Virus record (IMG/VR): IMGVR_UViG_3300044624_002978
Coordinates: 62,001-126,000 of that record
Direction: 5' to 3' (one strand)
DNA length: 64,000 nucleotides
From: a virus
Made by a program: the position numbers and the translations under genes. This document shows positions 18,445 through 52,323 of this stretch, piece by piece. The notes under the pieces are model-generated. The model searched no databases and was not told the origin of the DNA. It saw nothing but the letters and a program-made list of their open reading frames with translations. Positions within the stretch are counted from its first letter, which is position 1. Every line of letters starts with the position of its first letter.

Positions 18445-20169
18445 ATGAACATTTTTAAGAAAAATAACATTTTAATAAACGGTCTTCTTGGTGATACGTT
18501 TAATTTTTTGCAGGCAACATATAATCAGACAGCAAACGTATTTACTGTTGCTTCAGCTTGGGGACAGATATTATTTGTGCTACAAAATCTATCGCAGATG
18601 ATCCTATATTTTATAGAGGATTCCATAACTGAATTAAACATAGACCAAGCAACTAGGGATTATTCAGTTAGAAGCTTAGCCAGAATAGCTGGATATGACT
18701 CTGGTAGAGCTAGTGCTGCTCAGGGTGAAGTTTCTCTTAAATGGAATACAAGAGAAGGTGGAGTAGGTGGAGGAGCAGTTATAATAAAAAACAATACACA
18801 GATTAGATGTCAGGAAAATGGAAAAACGTATTCTCTTAGGTTTAGTAGTCCTGAAGTAACTATACCTCTTACCAGAGGAAATAATCTTAGAGTAAAGCTA
18901 GTACAGGGAACTTTTGAAACTGCACTTTTAACTGGGACCGGACAATCACTACAAAGCTATAATTTACCTTCAACATCAGGAGCTTTCTTGGATCAGTTTT
19001 ATGTTGATGTTTATGTTAATGAGGAAAAATGGAGAAGATATGATTCGTTATATGACATTCCACTCAACGGGAAGGGATATCTAGTTAGAACAGGTATACA
19101 AGAAGGGCTTGATGTTTATTTTGGTAACTCTAATTTCGGTATGGCTCCACCGAGAGGATCCAGAATAAGAGTCGAATACCTTAAAACAAATGGAATAAGT
19201 GGTAATGCTAATTCAACTAAGGATAATCAGTTAACGTATAGGTTTTCTAATCAGGGTACAGATCTATTCGGAGCATCAGTTGATCTTAATCTCTATATAG
19301 ATGTTAATAATGAAATAGATCCAGCATTTGGTAATAATCCTGAATCTCTTAATTTAATAAGACTAGTTGCACCTAAAACTTCAAGATCTTTTGTTTTTGC
19401 AAATCCTGATAACTACGAGGTATTTTTAAATAAATTAGGAATATTTTCTCAGATACAGGCATTTTCAACATTTGATGATGATTACCTTGACGACGATAAC
19501 GTGGTTTACATATATTTAGTCCCTGACGTTACATTAAATATATCATCTAATGAGGATTATTTTAGTGTTCCTGTTTCTGACTTCTTTCTAAGTAATGCAC
19601 AAAAGGCAAGAGTACTTAATCTTATAGAGGATTCTGGTTCTATGATAGCAACAACTGTTGTTAAAATTGTACAACCAGTAATAACTAAATTTGTTGGAAA
19701 TGCTATATTAAGTATATTTGAAGGCTCAGATCCGGAGACAATAAGACAGGCAGTGAGAAAGAAAATTTCAGATTATATGTTAAATCTGAAAAGAAGAGAT
19801 AAAATACCAAAATCTGACATAATAGCATTAATAGAATCTGTACCTGGCGTTGATTCGGTTTCTTTCTACTTTATTGGGCAGGCTAATGAACAGAATCAAA
19901 TAAACATCCAGGATCTGGATAATGTCTCGCAGGCACAACTGGACGAGGTTATTGGGATGGATCAATTTGGTGATATAATTATAGGCAGAAATCAATTGAT
20001 TCTTTTGAGAGGTGGTTGGACAGATAGAAACGGAACATCGTACACAGAGGATTTTGTTGACGGAAAACCAGGTCCACTCAATGTAACAATAGCATCCATA
20101 GTTCCTAAATCTTTTAGAATGGATTTAAACACCTCTATGAAGAGCCAAATAATTAATCAGGGAAGCTAA
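18445..20169 (+). CDS. gp6/J-like baseplate wedge protein
   Basis: A 574-residue protein next to the gp25-like gene. The N-terminal helices (LNIDQATRDYSVRSLARIAG) lead into beta domains with 'NNTQIRCQENGKTYSLRF', typical of the gp6/baseplate-J opening. The C-terminal part holds a helix (ETIRQAVRKKISDYMLNLKR), then IPKSDIIALIESVPGVDSV, the J-type 'I...SDI...I..V.GV..V' pattern. gp6 dimers form the ring that holds wedges together and triggers sheath contraction. T4 gp6 is 660 aa, so the length is compatible. Confidence 0.8.
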   Translation: MNIFKKNNILINGLLGDTFNFLQATYNQTANVFTVASAWGQILFVLQNLSQMILYFIEDSITELNIDQATRDYSVRSLARIAGYDSGRASAAQGEVSLKWNTREGGVGGGAVIIKNNTQIRCQENGKTYSLRFSSPEVTIPLTRGNNLRVKLVQGTFETALLTGTGQSLQSYNLPSTSGAFLDQFYVDVYVNEEKWRRYDSLYDIPLNGKGYLVRTGIQEGLDVYFGNSNFGMAPPRGSRIRVEYLKTNGISGNANSTKDNQLTYRFSNQGTDLFGASVDLNLYIDVNNEIDPAFGNNPESLNLIRLVAPKTSRSFVFANPDNYEVFLNKLGIFSQIQAFSTFDDDYLDDDNVVYIYLVPDVTLNISSNEDYFSVPVSDFFLSNAQKARVLNLIEDSGSMIATTVVKIVQPVITKFVGNAILSIFEGSDPETIRQAVRKKISDYMLNLKRRDKIPKSDIIALIESVPGVDSVSFYFIGQANEQNQINIQDLDNVSQAQLDEVIGMDQFGDIIIGRNQLILLRGGWTDRNGTSYTEDFVDGKPGPLNVTIASIVPKSFRMDLNTSMKSQIINQGS

Positions 20170-25536: not shown

Positions 25537-26736
25537 ATGGCTACAGCTACTATAACTTTAACCACTGCGGGAACTGGAACAGGACCATTTGATCTGTATT
25601 CCGATTTTGATGGATATGTTACCCCATTTGAAACTGGTGTTGATAAATCATTATTGGTTTCTGGATATACAACATCATTGGTTTATAATGGAACAACTAT
25701 AATTAGGGTTCAGTCCACAAGTATACAGTGTACAAATTATATAGATTTGTCAGTATCAGGTATAACTACCACAACCACGACATCAACATCAACAACAACA
25801 ACGACAACAACTCCTCCGGTGCTATGTGTATGTTATACAGTGGTTTATACTGGACCCCCTCCACCTCCACAATTTTATACTGGTACAACGGATTACTCAT
25901 ATATTGATTGTTCGGGACTTACCGTGAATACAATAGTATCAGAAGGTTACCCCGTTGATGTTTGTGCTCAAGAAAACAGTATTATAATAACCGGTGGTGA
26001 CGAACTCGCTGGCTGGGACGTGTCACTGTTTAATTGCTGTACTAGTAATCCAATGGATCTTAGTTATGGTGTAAATATTAGCACAGTTTGTAACAATCCG
26101 CAGCTTGTGTCTGTTTGTGCTGATACAAATGATATATGTACCGCAACAGTATTGACAGATTCTGATTTTAACCAGAATTGTCTTACTACACCTGCATCTG
26201 CAGGATATTATGGAGATGGAACAAACTATAGATATTGGGATGGATCAACATTTACTACCGGATGTACTCTTTGTACTGGATGTTTAGTTGCTGACACATT
26301 AATAACATTATCTAACGGGACAACTAAATTGATACAGGATATACAGGTTGGCGATGTATTGAAATCCCTTGATGTGGCAGGAATGCCTCTGGCACCGGAT
26401 CAATGGTATCATTGGAGCAGTGATATATTGGATTACATAAATTCCACATCAACTGTGATCGGTGTATCAATCCATGAATTTGATTCCGTAATAAACATTA
26501 ATAACGGTAAATTAATTGCAACCTACACCCATAACCACGTAGTTAAGCAAAATGACGTATGGTACATTAGAACAACATTCGAATTGAATGTTGGTGATGT
26601 GTTATTGGATATAGATAACAACGAATTTGAAATTACCTCATTGGTTGTTGTAAATGCACCAATAACTGTATATGATATTGATGTGAATAACAGTAATTTA
26701 TATTTTGCAAATGATACATTAACTCATAACAAATAA
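25537..26736 (+). CDS. Surface module protein with Thr linker and C-terminal Hint (intein-like) domain
   Basis: A 399-residue protein. Residues 1-75 are a beta-sandwich (FDLYSDFDGYVTPFETGVDK). Residues about 77-92 are a Thr/Ser run. A Cys- and Pro-rich beta region follows. Residues 249-398 form a Hint domain: Cys249 with LVADTLITLSNG ... IQDIQVGDVLKS (block A), ATYTHNHVV (block B, T-x-x-H), VYDIDVNNSNLYFA (block F) and a terminal THN (block G) followed by one Lys. Hint domains self-cleave through an N-terminal thioester. With almost no C-extein, splicing is not expected; cleavage, or ligation of the upstream part to a nucleophile, is the likely outcome (inference). The leader is A/T-rich with repeated ATAAAAT. 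Confidence 0.75.
   Translation: MATATITLTTAGTGTGPFDLYSDFDGYVTPFETGVDKSLLVSGYTTSLVYNGTTIIRVQSTSIQCTNYIDLSVSGITTTTTTSTSTTTTTTTPPVLCVCYTVVYTGPPPPPQFYTGTTDYSYIDCSGLTVNTIVSEGYPVDVCAQENSIIITGGDELAGWDVSLFNCCTSNPMDLSYGVNISTVCNNPQLVSVCADTNDICTATVLTDSDFNQNCLTTPASAGYYGDGTNYRYWDGSTFTTGCTLCTGCLVADTLITLSNGTTKLIQDIQVGDVLKSLDVAGMPLAPDQWYHWSSDILDYINSTSTVIGVSIHEFDSVININNGKLIATYTHNHVVKQNDVWYIRTTFELNVGDVLLDIDNNEFEITSLVVVNAPITVYDIDVNNSNLYFANDTLTHNK
25765..25812 (+). repeat. Threonine/serine-codon linker repeat
   Basis: Sixteen successive ACN codons with two TCA codons encode a Thr/Ser linker like the longer one at 24925-25134 in the preceding gene. Confidence 0.8.
26281..26730 (+). other. Hint (intein-like) autoprocessing domain, 150 aa
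   Basis: It starts at Cys249 and ends at His397-Asn398 of its host protein, with all four recognisable blocks (A, B, F, G). There is no homing endonuclease insertion; the length is that of a mini-intein or BIL domain. Confidence 0.75.
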
Positions 26737-26793
26737 TAAATTACATGATGGAATTTATTACTATTAGGAGAGTATAATTATAAAAATTTGGGT

Positions 26794-27762
26794 ATGATAA
26801 ACAAAAAAATAACCTTTATTTGCGCACAGCCGGATGTGCCTTATTTTCATTGGCAAGTGGAGGTACTAATCCATAATTTTATGAAAAGTGGAATAAATCC
26901 CAATTGGATAGAAATTCTATTTGCCTATGATGAGTCAATATCACCAGAGGGATCTGAGTTGGCTAAAAAATACCCATACGTTAGATTTTTTTTCTACAAG
27001 AAAACTCCGGTTGAAAACTACGGATATATTCCAATTTTAAGACCGGATATATTGGAACAGCATTTTCTTAAATATCCTGGTCTTTCAGATGATAATATAT
27101 TCTATCATGATTCTGATATCATCTTTAGAGAACTTCCTGACTTTAATTCATTGATTAATGATGATGTCTGGTATCTAAGTGACACGGTTTCCTATATAGG
27201 ATCAGATTATATTAAAAGTAAATCCGAGCAAATTTTGGAAGATATGTGTGACATAGCTGGAGTTTCCAGGGATCTTGTTGAAGCTAACAATCCAAATTCA
27301 GGAGGTGCGCAATATCTTATGAAAAATATAGATCACCTATTCTGGAGGGACGTTAAATACGTTGCTCTCAATCTGTATAAATATATGCTTGATGCTGAGG
27401 TGGAGGAGAGGAAAACTCTATCTGAAGAGCAGTTATCTTCTTACAACCCAATACAGAAATGGTGCGCAGATATGTGGGCGGTATTATGGTGTGGACTTAA
27501 AAGGGGAAGTCAGGTTAGATTATCTGATGAACTTGGATTTAGCTGGGGATCTAGCTGGGGGCAAACAGAATGGAATAAACATAAAATATTACACAATGCC
27601 GGAGTTACAGATAATGGGAACGGGAAGATGTTTTATAAAGGAGATTATATAAATAATTCTCCTTGGGAAGCTGATCTATCCACAATAAGTCCCGATGCCA
27701 ATTCTTATAATTATGTACAGGCCATATTATATGCTAAAGAAATGAGATCTAAACTGCATTGA
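26794..27762 (+). CDS. Glycosyltransferase-like protein with DxD motif
   Basis: 322 residues from ATG 26794; an in-frame TTG two codons upstream (26788) is less likely. The start, ITFICAQPDVPYFHWQVEVL, is a Rossmann-like strand-helix. Residues 104-110 (YHDSDII) hold the metal-binding D-x-D of GT-A glycosyltransferases. NPNSGGAQYLM and CADMWAVLWCGL follow, as in hydroxyproline/serine arabinosyl- or galactosyltransferase-type enzymes. The C-terminal HNAG is a likely acceptor/donor loop. The enzyme would move a sugar from a nucleotide sugar to an acceptor. It is flanked by Thr/Ser-rich tail proteins, so modification of phage fibres is plausible; host glycan modification is the alternative. Confidence 0.7.
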   Translation: MINKKITFICAQPDVPYFHWQVEVLIHNFMKSGINPNWIEILFAYDESISPEGSELAKKYPYVRFFFYKKTPVENYGYIPILRPDILEQHFLKYPGLSDDNIFYHDSDIIFRELPDFNSLINDDVWYLSDTVSYIGSDYIKSKSEQILEDMCDIAGVSRDLVEANNPNSGGAQYLMKNIDHLFWRDVKYVALNLYKYMLDAEVEERKTLSEEQLSSYNPIQKWCADMWAVLWCGLKRGSQVRLSDELGFSWGSSWGQTEWNKHKILHNAGVTDNGNGKMFYKGDYINNSPWEADLSTISPDANSYNYVQAILYAKEMRSKLH

Positions 27763-50211: not shown

Positions 50212-52323
50212 ATGCACTTCAATACTAAATATATTTTTCAAGGTGACTCAAAAAGTGAAGCCTTAGCTAAGATTAATTACAACTTTGATCAGATAGTTTC
50301 TTTTGGTGTTGGTCCTAATGGTCACCAGGGTGCTAAAGGAGCTACCGGAATATATGGGCCAGCTGGATTCAAGGGAATTAGCGGAACTACTGGTAATAGA
50401 GCAAGTAAATGGTATAGCCAATCAGCTCAACCTGCCGGAAGTCAACAATATGATTTATGGATAGATTCCAATACTGCGGACGGAGTTGTTAATCAGAAGG
50501 GCTCAACCGGTTCTTGGACCGATACTGGATATAGACTTTTTAGTTCACTATACTTTAAATCTTATGAGTTTATACAGGGACCGGCCGGGGTAACAGATAA
50601 ATATGTCATTGGTCTAAATAATGTCGGTGCATCAGCAGCATATACCAACCTGGTAATAAGTGATTCTGATATGAGTATATCTGATATAAATCCAAACAAC
50701 TCCAAGGTATTAATTTCTACTGATGATCAGATAAATTTGCCAGTGATGGGATTTTCTAAGTCCGGTGCTATATCGAACTCGAGACCATCTTTCTATTGGA
50801 AAAATACTGGAATTCTGGGTGATTTAGAATTCAGATCAGGTGGAATATTTAGGATAAGCTCGTATCTTGATACTTCTATAAATACCGGCACTTCAAGATT
50901 AAATATATCAGGTAACAGAATAAATTCAACCTCCCTTAATTATAGCTTATCTGGTGTAGGTGATTTTACTATAGCATCGAATAACACGATTGGTGCAGGA
51001 ACTTTCTTTAATGTTAATGCATCAAATTTGGTCTTCAATCAGCTAGCTTATGATCATCTTGGTTCAATTGTAATATCCGCTGCAACTGGATCTTATTTAT
51101 TAAATAATACACCTACAACGGCATTTGCGGGAAGTAATATCGAGCTGGAAGTAAGTAGCTTAAATAACTCGATATTTGAATTTACCGGTATAGGTGGAGG
51201 TAATATACTTTCTGCTAAACCTCAGGGAACAGTTTCAAGTGGTAATTTTTCGCAAACTATATTTGGGTCAACGGGAGGAGCCACTGGTGGAACTGGTGGT
51301 CCATATTCATATCATGTCAGAAGACTACAGCAAATAAGACAAAACACCATAAATGTAAATAATGTTACCTTATATCGTGCTACCTTTGGCTCAACGGCAA
51401 ATCTAACAAATGTTTTTGATATAAGAAATCTCACATTTTGGGAATCTGATGTTATAGTGGTTACTCCGCTTTCCTATACTTCGGCCGGCGGTGTTTATTT
51501 ATATGTTCCAGCCGATTATACGCAGAGCATATATCCAATATATTCCTATAATAGATCCAGAACATTTAGAGTGATGCTAGATAATACTGAAACCAATCCA
51601 ACGGGTAGAAATATACTTGGTCTTATTGTAGACTTTAGTCAATTTATTTCCAGTATAGGTACGGTGGTAAAAGTTTACGTCCAATTCCCTTCGACAACAT
51701 GTCAATATGTTGATCTTACCTGGTTAGCATACGCTAATGCAAATAACGCTAATACCAGGTTATTCTGGAAAACATGCGATGGCAGGGGAGGATATTTAGA
51801 TCTGACTAATCTATATTCAGTTGGTGTAGAACCACCTCCATCTAGTGGAACTGCTGGGGGTACCGTTCCTACTAGCGGTGGATCTTCTCCGGGTGGAGGT
51901 GGATGTCCGACTCCTGATATGCCTATTATGATAAGTCCGGAATTAAGTATATTTGCTGGTGATCTTCAAATCGGGGATGAAATATATACCATACATGAAA
52001 TTAGTAACGAATGGGGTTATTATAAAGTCTCATATATAGAAACTACGATACAGCCTATAGTTTCTGTAAATATAGGAGGAAAAATATTAACTGTTTCTGA
52101 TACGCATAAATTTTTATTAAGTTCGGGAGATTATGTTTCTGTTAGTGAAATTGAAATAGGATCCGAAATAAAAACGATGAACGGAACTTCAATACTTGAA
52201 TCAGTGCATGCTATTGGAAATGGTGAGGTACTAAAAATAGAAATAGAAGATGCTCATACATATGTTATTGATAGTATCATATCTCATAACAAGATAGTAA
52301 GATCATTAACAATTGAACCATAA
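50212..52323 (+). CDS. Collagen-like tail fibre paralogue 3 with C-terminal Hint domain
   Basis: 703 residues. The attachment segment is GDSKSEALAKINYNFDQIVS and Gly-X-Y triplets occupy residues 34-61 (GHQGAKGATGIYGPAGFKG). A 'YDLWIDS' domain and a beta shaft follow. A Gly/Ser linker (SGGSSPGGGG) leads to Cys565, which starts a Hint domain at 565-693: AGDLQIGDEIYTI (block A), TVSDTHKFLL (block B), EIEDAHTYVIDSII (block F) and SHN (block G), followed by ten residues. Autoproteolysis or thioester ligation after residue 564 would release or tether the fibre (inference). It starts 2 bases after the previous stop. Confidence 0.7.
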   Translation: MHFNTKYIFQGDSKSEALAKINYNFDQIVSFGVGPNGHQGAKGATGIYGPAGFKGISGTTGNRASKWYSQSAQPAGSQQYDLWIDSNTADGVVNQKGSTGSWTDTGYRLFSSLYFKSYEFIQGPAGVTDKYVIGLNNVGASAAYTNLVISDSDMSISDINPNNSKVLISTDDQINLPVMGFSKSGAISNSRPSFYWKNTGILGDLEFRSGGIFRISSYLDTSINTGTSRLNISGNRINSTSLNYSLSGVGDFTIASNNTIGAGTFFNVNASNLVFNQLAYDHLGSIVISAATGSYLLNNTPTTAFAGSNIELEVSSLNNSIFEFTGIGGGNILSAKPQGTVSSGNFSQTIFGSTGGATGGTGGPYSYHVRRLQQIRQNTINVNNVTLYRATFGSTANLTNVFDIRNLTFWESDVIVVTPLSYTSAGGVYLYVPADYTQSIYPIYSYNRSRTFRVMLDNTETNPTGRNILGLIVDFSQFISSIGTVVKVYVQFPSTTCQYVDLTWLAYANANNANTRLFWKTCDGRGGYLDLTNLYSVGVEPPPSSGTAGGTVPTSGGSSPGGGGCPTPDMPIMISPELSIFAGDLQIGDEIYTIHEISNEWGYYKVSYIETTIQPIVSVNIGGKILTVSDTHKFLLSSGDYVSVSEIEIGSEIKTMNGTSILESVHAIGNGEVLKIEIEDAHTYVIDSIISHNKIVRSLTIEP
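51904..52290 (+). other. Hint (intein-like) autoprocessing domain, 129 aa
   Basis: It runs from Cys565 to His692-Asn693 of fibre paralogue 3. It is shorter than the domain at 26281-26730 and clearly divergent from it, but has the same block order and the same extreme C-terminal position. Confidence 0.7.

Follow-up and report, generated by a model that had tools for sequence, protein, structure and literature searches.

The open reading frame at 25537-26736 of the window (the whole 64 kb stretch of DNA analysed here, which spans positions 62001-126000 of the 343,544-bp giant phage record IMGVR_UViG_3300044624_002978) ends in a real Hint domain, and profile matches, the predicted fold and conservation place this domain closest to the bacterial-intein-like (BIL) domains. 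We put at about two in three the probability that the C-terminal 151 residues form a catalytically intact, A-type BIL-like Hint and that the fibre is processed post-translationally at Gly248/Cys249, as sequence comparison and a structural model would suggest. The new observation concerns the residue that follows the domain: a lysine at position +1 is invariant both in the close family of this protein and in a separate family of phage proteins carrying an internal Hint. The presence of "intein domain" notes on some phage tail proteins was already known.

The full-length protein (43.0 kDa) is composed of an N-terminal part, a Thr run, a Cys-rich module, the Hint domain and Lys399, in this order, and the codon of Lys399 is followed by TAA TAA. 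The features of the locus are as follows.

18445-20169, upstream of the ORF: baseplate wedge gene (phrog_219, 4.4e-33)
25537..26736, + strand: modular fibre-like protein of 399 aa with a C-terminal Hint (ORF; baseplate/tail neighbours)
25765..25812, + strand: Thr-rich linker, residues 77-92 (sequence)
25822..26280, + strand: N-extein module, residues 96-248, a Cys-rich beta module (C-x-C-Y-T) with a DUF2510-like end
26125-26280: DUF2510-like motif (GYY...RYWDG), directly 5' of the Hint
26281..26730, + strand: Hint domain, residues 249-398 (Pfam and phmmer matches, AF2 model, Foldseek, VIA-align)
26281..26283, + strand: Cys249, i.e. Cys1 of the domain (TGT), the expected thioester nucleophile (invariant in 19/19)
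26521..26532, + strand: block B Thr329-x-x-His332, domain positions 81 and 84 (invariant in 19/19)
26725..26730, + strand: His397-Asn398, the expected Asn cyclisation site (invariant in 19/19, codons vary)
26731..26733, + strand: Lys399 (AAA), position +1 and sole residue after the Hint (Lys in 19/19)

A preliminary description of this DNA had placed a Hint domain at the very end of the protein, with a single residue following Asn398, and profile, fold and conservation agree with it; Cys249 (TGT at 26281-26283) and the terminal His-Asn (26725-26730) also lie where it had read them. Block B, given there as T-H-N-H, is present, but the conserved pair is Thr329-x-x-His332, whose Thr stands two residues before the one originally chosen. 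Neither the conservation of the +1 Lys nor a second C-terminal Hint protein in the window had been mentioned.

The module preceding the Hint (residues 96-248) is represented by alignment A2, with 24 invariant columns in 12 sequences, and ends in a DUF2510-like GYY...RYWDG...C-x-x-C stretch. Matches to DUF2510 (PF10708) were obtained with 4 of 13 relatives (best E 1.9e-4, others up to 0.01); in one protein the score was 20 bits, under the curated cut-off of 24. The model of these residues yielded no Foldseek match at E <=0.001 and a best VIA Z of 4.5, and no ubiquitin-like extein was recognised in the ORF.

The neighbouring genes, including the baseplate wedge gene upstream, suggest that the product is a tail protein. 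A 1586-residue protein with Thr linkers of its own, also encoded upstream, matches phrog_28177 (1.6e-19), and since its relatives (26 records) occur in Prevotella, Chryseobacterium, Tenacibaculum and Flavobacterium phages as well as in uncultured phages, the host probably belongs to the Bacteroidota. The next gene after the ORF (26788-27762) matches phrog_4417 (9.4e-66), a phrog of unknown function; its product contains a DSD motif, which we take to resemble that of glycosyltransferases.

The profile search for Hint families proposed in the preliminary description returned matches, although the Pfam scores are under the curated cut-offs. The isolated domain was matched by PT-HINT (E 2.7e-4, 21.6 bits; cut-off 27.7), Intein_splicing (5.5e-4, 20.2 bits; cut-off 35.8) and Hint (3.5e-3, 17.4 bits; cut-off 29.7), the window protein thus staying below the threshold of every Hint-type model matched; 13 relatives match such models with E down to 6.5e-6. 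A pretoxin of the PT-HINT kind was rejected, as no toxin domain follows the Hint, just Lys399. When this first Hint of the window was compared with the PDB by phmmer, it matched BIL2 (6y75, 1.4e-6) and the BIL domain of C. thermocellum (2lwy, 3.7e-4). It also matches the C-terminal part of PHROG 38766, annotated as "virion structural protein" (positions 344-468 of 478), but weakly (E 0.0016).

The predicted fold gave the same picture. With an AF2 model of residues 96-399, built from 32 sequences (mean pLDDT 88.3, pTM 0.56), four BIL2 chains ranked first in Foldseek and 2lwy fifth. VIA-align superimposed the model on Tetrahymena BIL2 (6y75) with Z 20.1 at 1.6 A over 137 aligned residues, and on 2lwy, the gp41-1 intein and Hedgehog (1at0) with Z 18.4, 18.1 and 17.7; the match to the Hint fold covers model residues 151-304, with Z 17.7-20.1 over BIL2, 2lwy, the intein and Hedgehog.

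The domain is neither a canonical intein nor a Hedgehog domain. With the A-type BIL of C. thermocellum it shares the fold, Cys1, the TxxH pair, the C-terminal His-Asn, the lack of a Cys, Ser or Thr at +1 and a place in a variable surface-type protein; Cys1 and the block B Thr/His were found in 19/19 sequences of the close family, HNK likewise in 19/19, and the N-side is variable. It differs from the A-type BIL in its single-Lys C-extein, its phage fibre-like context and its family-invariant +1 Lys. Splicing of BIL domains without a +1 nucleophile is reportedly the subject of an earlier paper. BIL2 of Tetrahymena BUBL1 (6y75, 6tmm) is the best match in both sequence and structure; it is located between ubiquitin-like domains in a eukaryotic protein. 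Canonical inteins require Cys, Ser or Thr at +1, unlike the window Hint, which has Lys there and no C-extein for ligation. As in Hedgehog Hog, the Hint stands C-terminal to a module and there is no C-extein to ligate, but the window protein has no sterol-recognition region and keeps the His-Asn, a pair that serves Asn cyclisation and not Hedgehog-type transfer. The Hedgehog-like wording of the preliminary description is therefore better replaced by a comparison with A-type BIL domains.

The close family comprises 58 carriers with a Hint beginning CLV, one of them cut at its 3' end; duplicates (L015/L016) and a locus lacking its start (L078) were left out of the count. Among 16 close viral relatives, 15 are complete and all of these end in HNK and a stop; L006 is truncated where its contig stops. 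The 57 complete carriers represent 19 distinct nucleotide sequences, in all of which Cys1, Thr81, His84, His149, Asn150 and Lys151 are invariant, as is His334 (domain position 86). The codons nevertheless vary: the +1 Lys is encoded by AAG in 13 and AAA in 6 sequences, and 63 of the 81 protein-invariant sites (out of 151) differ in codon. Median dN/dS of the Hint was 0.117 (163/171 pairs usable, with synonymous changes near saturation in some). The low dN/dS, the invariant residues and the codon variation together indicate that both the catalytic residues and the +1 Lys are maintained by selection. Lys alone follows Asn in 49/57 complete carriers, and the other eight have longer tails, KDEFVPFEP (6), KDEFAPFEP (1) and KDEPFDP (1). 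A hidden C-extein reached by readthrough or frameshifting was not supported, since, on inspection by eye, HNK is followed in most members by another stop or by DNA of unrelated sequence.

The portion upstream of the Hint is far more variable. Among the 23 distinct carriers whose upstream sequence was long enough, mean identity was 84.4% for the Hint vs 42.4% for the preceding 150 residues, and N-side identity was below Hint identity in 250/253 pairs, so that one processing unit appears to serve exchangeable fibre modules; in many carriers the upstream part is a long Thr/Pro-repeat protein. A search with the Cys-rich module yielded 43 loci, of which 13 were examined closely (the remaining 30 are mostly from known carrier contigs): L128, L144 and L145 have the Hint, and ten (L149-L158) lack it. 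L149 and L151, both Hint-less, terminate shortly behind the first Cys-rich part, and the gene next to them is the same portal gene that follows carriers L032, L045 and L056 (phrog_213, 4.9e-68 in L056 and 1.8e-67 in L149); Hint-less L157 likewise precedes the portal gene. At 1040-1130 of L157, behind a stop, we identified an out-of-frame remnant, SNSNLYFANNVLTYNK, which corresponds to the end of a Hint in which the His of His-Asn is replaced by Tyr (a deletion scar). These Hint-less alleles and the scar indicate that the phages acquire and shed the Hint at a single hypervariable locus and can do without it, and hence that not every phage depends on processing. No Hint-less relative ended exactly at the predicted cleavage site in a search with one narrow DNA pattern, which is weak evidence. 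The scan of genome contigs for bacterial relatives, in which the bacterial side was barely sampled, returned only L159 and L160.

The L157 scar, with its His to Tyr change, shows that decay occurs, and a domain with neither a C-extein nor a canonical +1 residue could be regarded as a decayed intein, i.e. a frozen, functionless relic. We consider this very unlikely and rejected it, in view of the dN/dS of 0.117, the invariant catalytic residues and the maintenance of the Hint in 57 complete carriers. The Hint fold and the pairing of the same Hint with different N-exteins would also suit a mobile mini-intein trapped at a gene's end. This is the least probable of the explanations considered, and it was rejected as well, because the 151 residues contain no homing endonuclease insert, Cys, Ser or Thr is lacking at +1, and the domain is C-terminal in every complete carrier of the family, its Asn being followed by 1 to 9 residues.

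The combination of a fibre- or collagen-like protein with a C-terminal Hint recurs in other phages, namely Phage NCTB, Erwinia, Dickeya and Yersinia phages and an uncultured 484 kb phage (L164); GenBank notes on the tail proteins of Phage NCTB and Erwinia phage Y3 state "contains intein domain". The proteins of Phage NCTB and of the Erwinia phage Y3 relatives resemble the window protein in these respects and in a tail of 3-10 residues, but differ in having other exteins, A, K, T or V at +1 and a Hint only about 25-30% identical. Searches of the openly available PMC literature, together with passages of papers found there, turned up no account of phage fibres ending in a Hint or of a conserved lysine at +1; this is weak evidence, since subscription papers lie mostly outside it.

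Several related arrangements were encountered. In proteins with two Hints in tandem (L086, L087, L090-L092; also L088/L089, L098, L100-L102 and L211-L218), no Cys1 is obvious in the first Hint, and a few residues past its His-Asn another Hint begins, this one with Cys, at junctions such as HNIPPGKCF, HNIPPCF and HNLPPCF. One 133 kb contig (IMGVR_UViG_3300020473_000021) encodes two fibres with C-terminal Hints (L093 and L198), whose tails read IPGGGSQVKR and IPGGGVVVKK, and the first of which follows a long Ser/Thr/Arg/Trp repeat. In the L084 ORF, an LCCL domain (PF03815, 7.5e-9; residues 318-375) lies just before a C-terminal Hint with a +1 Lys.

The window itself contains a second protein of this type:

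50212..52323, + strand: 703-aa fibre-like protein, the second of the window, whose C-terminal Hint is divergent (own-genome match of HMM A6, E 5.5e-5)
51904..52290, + strand: second Hint domain, from GGGG(linker)-Cys to His-Asn (sequence; phmmer 2lwy E 0.011)
52291..52320, + strand: tail of the second Hint, KIVRSLTIEP, with Lys at +1 and then nine residues (sequence)

Near its N-terminus this protein has a weak collagen-like stretch. The two Hints share 19% identity (E 3e-4, for that single comparison), and the search with the first Hint alone did not find the second. Its close relatives (L256-L258) also have Lys at +1 with another tail (KIVQSISAAE), and the distant ones (L259-L261) have Ile.

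The +1 lysine extends well beyond the close family. In the wide-scan alignments A1 and A6 the first sequences stopped at Asn, and their confirmation was therefore not steered by the residue at +1. By means of A6 we found a family of conserved phage proteins whose Hint is internal (L103-L113 and L169-L245), in which an N-part of about 165-205 residues precedes the Hint and a C-part of 99-110 residues follows it; the latter is Fn3-like by eye, and L172 gave no Pfam Fn3 match. The 73 loci represent 48 distinct sequences and 46 distinct proteins. Lys at +1 and Gly at +2 are present in 48/48 (AAA in 39, AAG in 9) at pairwise identities down to 31.8%, and the last four of the 26 invariant columns (out of 167) are H-N-K-G. 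By their sequences, these proteins are candidates for Lys-dependent splicing. A +1 Lys was also detected in L084 (KNEENQQSNQ), L164 (KH) and BN7874_135 of NCTB (KVD). In a quick tree comprising 94 Hints, the +1 residue is Lys in 67 and another in 27 (I 9, L 8, V 3, T 3, A 2, S 1, G 1), with at least five changes between Lys and other residues on a tree in which many branches are long or open. The lysine is not universal, its place being taken by Thr or Val in the Erwinia and Yersinia homologues and by Ile or Leu in a marine group.

Lysine may also be enriched in the short tails as a whole. It is present in 12/12 tails of up to 10 residues, vs 4.19 expected from 225 other ORF ends (p 1.5e-6, post hoc and uncorrected) or 3.38 expected from a looser background of 327 ends (p 1.0e-7); the tails were picked by hand, about one per lineage, and some are related (L095/L099; three from NCTB). 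All six tails without a +1 Lys contain a Lys elsewhere (2.43 expected, p 0.004). When the test was fixed beforehand, the single new short-tail lineage (L166) had a Lys, which is too few to decide, and we treat the enrichment as a hint only.

In the proposed mechanism, Cys249 would attack the carbonyl of Gly248 (an N-S acyl shift), assisted by Thr329 and His332, and would thereby generate a thioester joining the fibre module (residues 1-248) to the Hint. A nucleophile would then resolve the thioester and so remove the Hint from the fibre, and cyclisation of Asn398 would break the bond to Lys399. The residues for both steps are retained, though the second would free one lysine only. Profile, fold and conservation thus favour cleavage or acyl transfer as the likeliest use of the domain, as the preliminary description had predicted. 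Because there is no Cys, Ser or Thr at +1, the nucleophile would be water, a thiol or an amine, and the candidate favoured by conservation is a lysine amine, either that of Lys399 beside the active site or that of another protein.

Were the nucleophile water, the outcome would be plain self-cleavage, in which the Hint acts as a maturation or solubility tag hydrolysed off the folded fibre and the Lys only aids Asn cyclisation or packing. This is a credible alternative, if one with less than even prospects: according to PMC7664689, BIL domains yield cleaved products for the most part, and Hint-less alleles occupy the same place before the portal gene, but self-cleavage alone does not explain the +1 Lys in all 48 sequences of the internal-Hint family.

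A lysine amine, in turn, is a plausible acceptor because, as reported in section 2.4 of PMC8616854, BIL2 makes an isopeptide bond with the side chain of a lysine, and an invariant Lys at the place of the inteins' nucleophile would fit such a role. By analogy, the phage-fibre Hints may constitute a class in which lysine replaces the Cys, Ser or Thr of inteins and its amine takes the Gly248 thioester in cis or in trans, a proposal that we make tentatively and hold to be possible but less likely than not. Possible products would be isopeptide-type or Lys-capped in cis and, in trans, a covalent bond to another virion or cell-surface protein. Counting against the best reading are the BIL2 crystal construct, whose +1 residue does not look like Lys, the 27/94 tree rows with another residue at +1, the Ile of L259-L261, the loss of the Hint in some relatives, the narrow pattern search that returned no relative ending at the cleavage site, and the sub-threshold Pfam scores.

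Transfer in trans, by which Gly248 would be joined in a Hedgehog-like or BIL2-like manner to a Lys or other nucleophile on a virion or host-surface protein, seems unlikely. The thioester has no C-extein to ligate, the exteins are fibre-like, and BIL2 is reported to dispense its ubiquitin-like module to other proteins, to which it becomes conjugated (PMC8616854, section 2.4); against this, no acceptor is known, and the His-Asn is kept though dispensable for transfer in trans.

Tetrahymena BIL2 is the only BIL domain met here as a reported isopeptide-former. The natural role of BIL domains is, to our knowledge, largely open. Because exchangeable fibres end in BIL-like domains that look intact, and because two families share an invariant lysine at +1, Hint-to-lysine transfer is cheaply testable. 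If such transfer takes place, new ligation tools would follow, and phages would own a built-in, ATP-free means to mature or covalently fix their adhesins, with ligation chemistry of the BIL2 type being used in building or arming virions.
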